Shown here: positions 15,190-15,454 of the stretch, piece after piece
Position numbering within the stretch: the first letter of the stretch is position 1
Layout: every line of letters begins with the position of its first letter
Assembly (NCBI RefSeq): GCF_001548055.1
Contig: NZ_AP014724.1
Coordinates: forward strand, 2,108,001 to 2,172,000
Length of the DNA stretch: 64,000 nt
Reading direction: 5' to 3'
Source of the DNA: Sulfurospirillum cavolei
GTDB taxonomy: Bacteria; Campylobacterota; Campylobacteria; Campylobacterales; Sulfurospirillaceae
Position numbers and translations under genes: made by a program
The notes under the pieces: model-generated
What the model saw: only the letters and a program-made list of their open reading frames with translations
Told to the model about the DNA's origin: nothing
The model's database searches: none

Positions 15190-15454
15190 ATGCCAAATCC
15201 AACCCACTAAGCGCAGTGCGCACAACGATAAGCAAGCAGTTTGAGGCGACGAGACGAAGGCATAGCCAAAGCTATGTCAAGGAGCGTCAACGAAAAAATG
15301 CGACGTTTATCGTTGTGCCCTTCGGGAGAAAAGAAGAGCACGCATCTACTTCGTTAAAGTCTTTCGCTTTGCGATAAGCAAAGCTTCACGTCTTTGCCTC
15401 GTAGCTACATGCTCCTCTTTTCTCGCTCTTCGCTTAGTGGGTTGGATTTGGCAT
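15190..15454 (+). repeat. 265-bp palindromic element with 24-bp perfect terminal inverted repeats
   Basis: Arms 15190-15213 and 15431-15454 are exact reverse complements over 24 bp (ATGCCAAATCCAACCCACTA + AGCG). Inside are two further arms. Left: GCACAACGATAA 15220-15231 / TTATCGTTGTGC 15307-15318, capped by CATAGC-CAAA-GCTATG 15261-15276. Right: 15326-15340 / 15410-15424 (15 bp, one mismatch), capped by GCTTTGC-GATAA-GCAAAGC 15366-15384. As RNA this is a three-way junction. It lies exactly between the TPP aptamer and the thiC ribosome binding site. It may be a MITE-like insertion or a structured leader; no transposase or ORF is present. Confidence 0.85.

Follow-up and report, generated by a model that had tools for sequence, protein, structure and literature searches.

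The thiC leader of Sulfurospirillum cavolei raises the question of whether the 265-bp palindrome lying between its TPP aptamer and the gene is part of the riboswitch or an insertion into it and, in the latter case, what kind of element it is and what becomes of the switch. We addressed this in a window of 64,000 nucleotides (the whole stretch of DNA that was analyzed, numbered from its first letter; features in Table 1). As an earlier note on this DNA had described, the palindrome begins where the aptamer ends, is bounded by perfect 24-bp inverted repeats (15190-15213/15431-15454) and encloses two nested hairpins, one of 12 perfect base pairs (15220-15231/15307-15318) and one of 15 bp with a single mismatch (15326-15340/15410-15424). 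Beyond the 24 bp, pairing of the end stem runs on with mismatches to 30 bp (15219/15425), and both inner arms carry, further in, the internal loops that are conserved in the family described below. Two details of that description needed amendment: the gap before AAGGAG is 1 bp and not 3 bp, and the mini-hairpin CC-TTC-GG that separates the two arms makes the junction four-way and not three-way. The insert folds with a minimum free energy of -126.5 kcal/mol, against -72.95 +/- 4.63 kcal/mol for 200 dinucleotide shuffles (z -11.6; 0/200 as good). It thus has the anatomy of a miniature inverted-repeat transposable element (MITE), namely a short (<600 bp), non-coding sequence with terminal inverted repeats. 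There is no ORF of at least 80 aa inside it, a search for an internal promoter found none, and terminator-like sites are not above chance. Rfam gave no match across the element in the window and no family reaching its gathering score there; the RF00059 match to the adjoining aptamer itself lies under the family gathering score of 54.3, which is why a gathering-level scan misses it.

Table 1. Features of the thiC leader and its insertion in the window.
Feature	Coordinates	Strand	Evidence
TPP (THI-box) aptamer upstream of thiC	15077..15189	+	cmscan RF00059 39.9 bits, E 2.8e-6; genus consensus fold
P1 5' strand UUGUCU, pairs with AGAUAA 15460-15465	15079..15084	+	RNAalifold of 20 genus leaders; constrained fold
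T-element, entire insertion, 265 bp	15190..15454	+	absent from ~20 relatives with the same leader; fold z -11.6
Left end repeat (24 bp perfect, 30-bp stem)	15190..15219	+	repeat and fold analysis
Arm A, 99 nt, sense on +	15220..15318	+	model R1 59.0 bits, + strand
Arm A conserved internal-loop strands AGGCG; CAACGA	15244-15248; 15288-15293	+	model R1
Mini-hairpin CC-TTC-GG, junction	15319..15325	+	fold; CCNNNGG/CCCNNNGGG spacer in most of ~80 elements
Arm B, 99 nt, module of arm A, sense on -	15326..15424	-	model R1 84.2 bits, - strand
Arm B loop strands (+ reading) TTCGTTA; TGCCT	15350-15356; 15395-15399		model R1
Right end repeat	15425..15454	+	repeat and fold analysis
thiC ribosome site AAGGAG, overlapped by P1 3' strand 15460-15465	15456..15461	+	sequence; genus consensus fold
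thiC (phosphomethylpyrimidine synthase)	15470..17338	+	Pfam PF01964 E 3.5e-186, PF13667

Leaders of the genus have a common P1 (UUGUCU/AGAUAA) overlapping the ribosome site, as seen in the RNAalifold consensus of 20 leaders. In about 20 genus relatives the site is bare, with the aptamer followed by GCGTAGGAAATAAGGAG and running directly into AAGGAG; their continuation reads GCGTAGG(G)AAATAAGGAGATAAACNNATG without an insert, and the window leader reads GCGTAGGGATA-(265 bp)-CAAGGAGATAAACTTATG. The insertion, on the P4-to-P1 side of the aptamer junction, is bordered by TA on the left and CA on the right, where relatives have a single TA (within one ATA), which would be compatible with a 2-bp TA target duplication bearing one change. 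Since these relatives have a bare site, and no examined relative has the element at thiC, a conserved riboswitch device is rejected, and the compared leaders identify the palindrome as an insertion interrupting the leader of a TPP riboswitch.

Weak blast matches in relatives proved to be elements of the same layout with a different sequence. A covariance model (R1) built on 23 arms (alignment A1) finds arms in 122 of the 399 Campylobacterales genomes, which represent 32 of 87 genera (E <= 1e-4; copy numbers per genome from this search are lower bounds), and, with weak single-hairpin relatives included at E <= 0.1, in 17 of 24 genomes of the genus. The arms often occur in pairs, 10-12 nt apart and on opposite strands. 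Unconstrained folding of the loci recovered about 80 distinct elements (85 listed, a few of them spurious), which we term T-elements: they mostly total 265-275 bp, with arms of 98 nt (mode; nearly all 96-101 nt), an end stem of 30-36 bp (mode 33) and, in most, a CCNNNGG or CCCNNNGGG spacer between the arms. All fold to one rigid T shape in which most of the stem sequence is free to change. The perfection of the terminal repeats, which had been taken to suggest a recent origin or selection, does not in itself establish recency, as near-perfect stems are found in nearly all members despite wholly different sequences. The end repeats differ from lineage to lineage and fall into many apparently unrelated groups (e.g., AAGTACCTAACC..., TAACTGACCTTACGCAC..., TAGACTTCTTGCATAACC..., ATTACTCCACC... 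and AGGGCACCTCTAAAAACCC...; the window copy has ATGCCAAATCCAACCC...). The nearest core relatives of the window copy (in G050 and G225) are 67-68% identical to it and have quite different ends. Its derivation from the thiD copy described below was considered and rejected, the closest cores being found in other genera at 63-68% identity. Plasmids and phages yielded no element match, and viral contigs searched with one end pattern yielded none either. Judged by these sequences, T-elements constitute a family of small mobile DNA elements; our searches of the open-licence literature found no description of repeats of this kind for the group.

One module makes up both arms in inverted orientation: arm A aligns with arm B when the latter is reverse-complemented. 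Two-sided changes occur in 34 of the 37 stem pairs of A1 and in all 37 of A2, an alignment of 100 distinct arms fitted to the model; the covariation score of the arm stem is 0.810, against 0.209 in shuffles (0/500 reach it) and at most 0.24 when slid. Conserved columns fall instead in unpaired motifs, A-GGC on the 5' side and AAC-G on the 3' side (~90%), with conserved internal loops AGGCA/TAACG and an invariant A near the arm tip. At positions 13-17 of the outer helix there are 138 G.U against 2 A.C pairs in the sense reading, and a count made without the model gives a G.U bias of the same sense for arm A and for arm B read as its reverse complement. Such a strand-specific zone is not expected of a site recognized as a duplex; together with the conserved loops, it indicates that constraint acts on the folded sense strand of each arm, the two senses lying on opposite strands.

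Filled and empty alleles are found at three loci, namely thiC, thiD and L147. Three elements (L147, L148 and L149) are 92-96% identical and lie at different loci with different flanks; relatives are empty at the L147 locus, where G004 and G005 hold a 20-nt remnant. This remnant (L347 in G004, L346 in G005) resembles the product of a deletion of an ancestral element between short direct repeats TCTAAT. Several carrier genomes have many copies with different flanks, family members occupy many unrelated intergenic loci, and none of 59 scored loci lies within a long ORF; the family thus shows the multiple loci and empty sites by which MITE mobility is recognized, and at other loci a target duplication of TA or AATA would fit. 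As for mobilizers, L147 has the ends TAGACTTCTT(G/T)CATAA in common with an IS5-like insertion sequence (L263; 909 bp, two ORFs) of which the same genome carries four copies, which suggests that T-elements may borrow resident transposases. The IS5-like DDE_Tnp_4 was rejected as a general mobilizer, being present in only 20 of 399 genomes, and for the commonest end, AAGTACCTAACC, 20 carrier genomes held no matching element of ~1 kb and only element-sized pairs.

We put at roughly three in four the probability that the insert is a non-coding, MITE-like element of an order-wide family, selected as a folded strand and tolerated at thiC through its structural transparency. T-elements would move as DNA, their ends being cut in trans by any resident transposase that matches them, and lineages would trade ends with one another. 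A putative factor may read the mismatches conserved in the folded arm, in which case only properly folding copies would keep moving; the inverted-dimer layout would supply one sense arm to whichever strand folds. The window copy lies on the P4-to-P1 side of the aptamer junction; mutual pairing of its ends would let it fold away as a domain of its own, so that the aptamer, P1 and the ribosome site should stay neighbors and TPP control of thiC should largely survive. Weighing against this proposal, the genome of the window copy (G000) has no second full element and no insertion sequence with matching ends; its target duplication is not clean (TA versus CA); no transposase is tied to the family as a whole, the commonest end lacking its ~1-kb partner in the 20 carriers; and template switching alone could keep stems perfect, though not mismatched loops.

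The part of this proposal that concerns the switch is a prediction from folding energies. Of the 57 pairs predicted for the joined (bare) thiC leader, the minimum-energy fold with the element in place loses none, not even near the ribosome site, whereas shuffled inserts (n=30) keep about half of them on average and all of them in 1 of 30. The energy needed to enforce P1 is 0.4 kcal/mol whether or not the element is present, the mean openness of the ribosome site is 0.49 with the element versus 0.47 without, and no pairing between element and ribosome site appears in the minimum-energy fold. A second lineage of T-elements lies inside the thiD TPP aptamer of four species (G006, G009, G011 and G017; 266 bp; L222, L227, L228 and L233), in the strand between P2 and P4, and the aptamer core is intact in all four. 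The distance from GCTGAGA to CTGATC in these thiD-type leaders is 304 nt with the element and 34-38 nt in 13 leaders without it; in G001, a fifth species, it is 61 nt, the leader there keeping only a deletion footprint, a 23-bp leftover (L224). Thus, 13 of the 18 thiD-type leaders examined have an intact aptamer and no element. About 60 other element loci scanned with Rfam showed no riboswitch overlap, so we do not claim that TPP switches are targeted.

Accommodation of this kind is not the only conceivable outcome. The insertion might instead break the riboswitch, for example by RNase III cutting or because the leader is slowed or uncoupled, so that thiC expression would become constitutive or fall. 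The leader now contains near-perfect duplexes of 30 and ~45 bp, and such long stems are classical RNase III substrates; RNase III is expected to target them, and its cutting is the main risk to the transparency view. We nevertheless consider a broken switch rather unlikely, given that folding predicts an undisturbed aptamer and P1, that the element-bearing thiD aptamers keep their cores, and that a cut inside the element would leave aptamer and ribosome site joined by the base of the stem, comparable to fragmented 23S rRNA. As the element folds up on itself, the insertion probably leaves the riboswitch unbroken; on the folding models, its toleration as a structurally transparent insert is the best reading, and a switch that still works with an extra domain hanging off its junction is the simplest prediction.

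The selection of the arm as a folded strand could have another basis, in which T-elements are REPIN/BIME-like and a domesticated Y1 (TnpA-REP) transposase acts on the arm hairpins in their single-stranded DNA form. Like REPs (PMC8266576), they present a pair of inverted imperfect hairpins with conserved mismatches and strand discrimination; the host genome has a Y1_Tnp gene, and such genes are enriched in carriers, being found in 82 of 122 carriers versus 102 of 277 other genomes (odds ratio 3.5, from raw counts that ignore ancestry). The gene in question (G000 C1:2417474-2417812) is the single Y1_Tnp gene of that genome, with a 289-aa frame, the size of REP-associated transposases. We find this improbable in view of arms of ~98 nt as opposed to 20-40 nt, the absence of the GTAG/CGTC tag from the conserved columns, and the 40 of 122 carriers without Y1_Tnp, including G290, G330 and G341 with at least 10 arm matches each. 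On the same grounds, i.e., arm size (96-101 nt), tag and Y1 dependence, membership in REPIN/BIME was rejected, as was Y1_Tnp as an obligate partner. The conserved 2x2 mismatch of the arm (A2 columns 32-33/99-100) places GC opposite AA; the AA-GC bulge that E. coli REPs need consists of these bases with the sides swapped (PMC8266576).

A further alternative dispenses with selection altogether, the elements being merely MITEs of the ordinary kind in decay, with template switching during replication maintaining their perfect palindromes. Such switching could explain the perfect outer stem, and positions 1-12 of the outer helix are indeed almost purely Watson-Crick, with similar numbers of G.U and A.C (21 versus 13), as gene conversion between arms would give. 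The kept mismatches and strand-specific wobbles are not explicable in this way: they persist order-wide where conversion would erase them, and arm length is fixed within ~3 nt, which makes the absence of selection quite improbable.

A co-opted expression platform of unusual size, relaying TPP binding through the T to the ribosome site, is a highly improbable role for the element, for although it lies exactly between aptamer and ribosome site and a second lineage is kept with intact folding in the thiD aptamer of four species (an association with TPP switches seen twice), it occurs at thiC in no relative, is lacking from 13 of 18 thiD-type leaders with an intact aptamer (one other having only a footprint), does not pair with the ribosome site in the minimum-energy fold and leaves the openness of that site unchanged; Rfam scans of ~60 other element loci, moreover, show no further riboswitch overlap. 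The riboswitch already has an expression platform, P1 running into the ribosome site, which is intact in silico with the insertion. Thus, of the two interpretations offered by the earlier note, the RNA device transmitting TPP binding finds no support, given this platform and the absence of the element at thiC in all relatives examined, and the MITE-like insertion tolerated between sensor and gene is borne out by ~20 empty sites, by diverged relatives at many unrelated loci and by the different lineage inside another TPP riboswitch. The search of genome and relatives that it had recommended returned a family at multiple loci with empty sites, the copy in its own genome being single. Relatives with the leader and no arm complementarity, which it had named as a counter-indication, do exist and count against the device only.

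A MITE-like nature brings T-elements close to several known systems. Bacterial MITEs, such as QMITE2 of Coxiella, have been reviewed (PMC10969869), and T-elements resemble them in being small, non-coding and intergenic, in their perfect terminal repeats and (predicted) stable stem-loop transcript and, in at least one lineage, in having ends in common with an insertion sequence. Unlike usual MITEs, with IS-shared ends and arbitrary interiors, they have a conserved, covarying T interior common to lineages of unrelated ends. With REPIN/BIME and their TnpA-REP (RAYT) transposases they share two inverted imperfect hairpins, conserved mismatches and strand discrimination, and they differ in size, in lacking the tetranucleotide tag, in their additional end repeats and in having no strict link to a Y1 gene; by analogy, a T-element may be described as working like a MITE with REPIN-like paired hairpins. 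The BOX, RUP and SPRITE repeats of Streptococcus pneumoniae are interspersed, structured and possible regulators (PMC10969869, PMC3049150). T-elements are likewise structured interspersed repeats in leaders, differing in their fixed-geometry T, inverted-dimer arm and host group. The intervening sequences of 23S rRNA are self-paired and likewise interrupt a structured RNA, which tolerates them thanks to the pairing of their ends; they differ in residing in rRNA helices and in their sequence. The terminal repeat of parvoviruses (AAV) also forms a T of an end stem and two arms; the arms of T-elements, at ~98 nt, are not short, and no virus is involved. The TPP riboswitch (RF00059) is the site of insertion, both for this element at thiC and for the thiD copies of other species; the element, absent in relatives, is no part of it.

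Thus, an order-wide family absent from Rfam 15 combines a rigid T fold with almost no common stem sequence and lineage-specific ends. We tentatively posit, at somewhat less than even odds, that T-elements are a distinct class of mobile elements defined by three-dimensional shape and not by sequence. A T of fixed size, built from two inverted hairpin modules, would be recognized in its folded form, as RNA or single-stranded DNA, by a putative host or element protein; the end repeats would act as exchangeable adaptors to any transposase at hand, and self-folding would make insertions nearly silent even within a riboswitch. The notion of a mobile element selected for its shape is directly testable with T-elements. 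With two independent insertions, the junctions of TPP riboswitches also provide a natural experiment in the tolerance of structured RNA switches for an added domain.

Some further structures are related to the family or lie beside it. A 166-bp single-hairpin MITE occurs at G000 C1:386598-386763 and 840542-840707 (L171, L155), at many loci among L150-L175 and in up to ~14 copies per genome in the genus; it has ends TAGACTTCTTNCATAACC and a tip GAGTCATAGC..GCTATGGCGATG, the tip being common to some T-element arms and the ends to an IS5-like insertion sequence. Rfam HPnc0260, a Helicobacter antisense RNA, scores just above gathering over a T-element beside a tRNA (L307 423-567), possibly as a distant relative or by chance. 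Two T-elements with different ends, ~740 bp apart, flank a gene-sized stretch (L251 1468-2749). A lone arm lies directly 3' of a phnA-like gene (L199 1501-1597, L201 1501-1597 and L342 at G017:C24:267701), in at least two species and probably a third, and is perhaps a half element fixed there as a bidirectional end structure.
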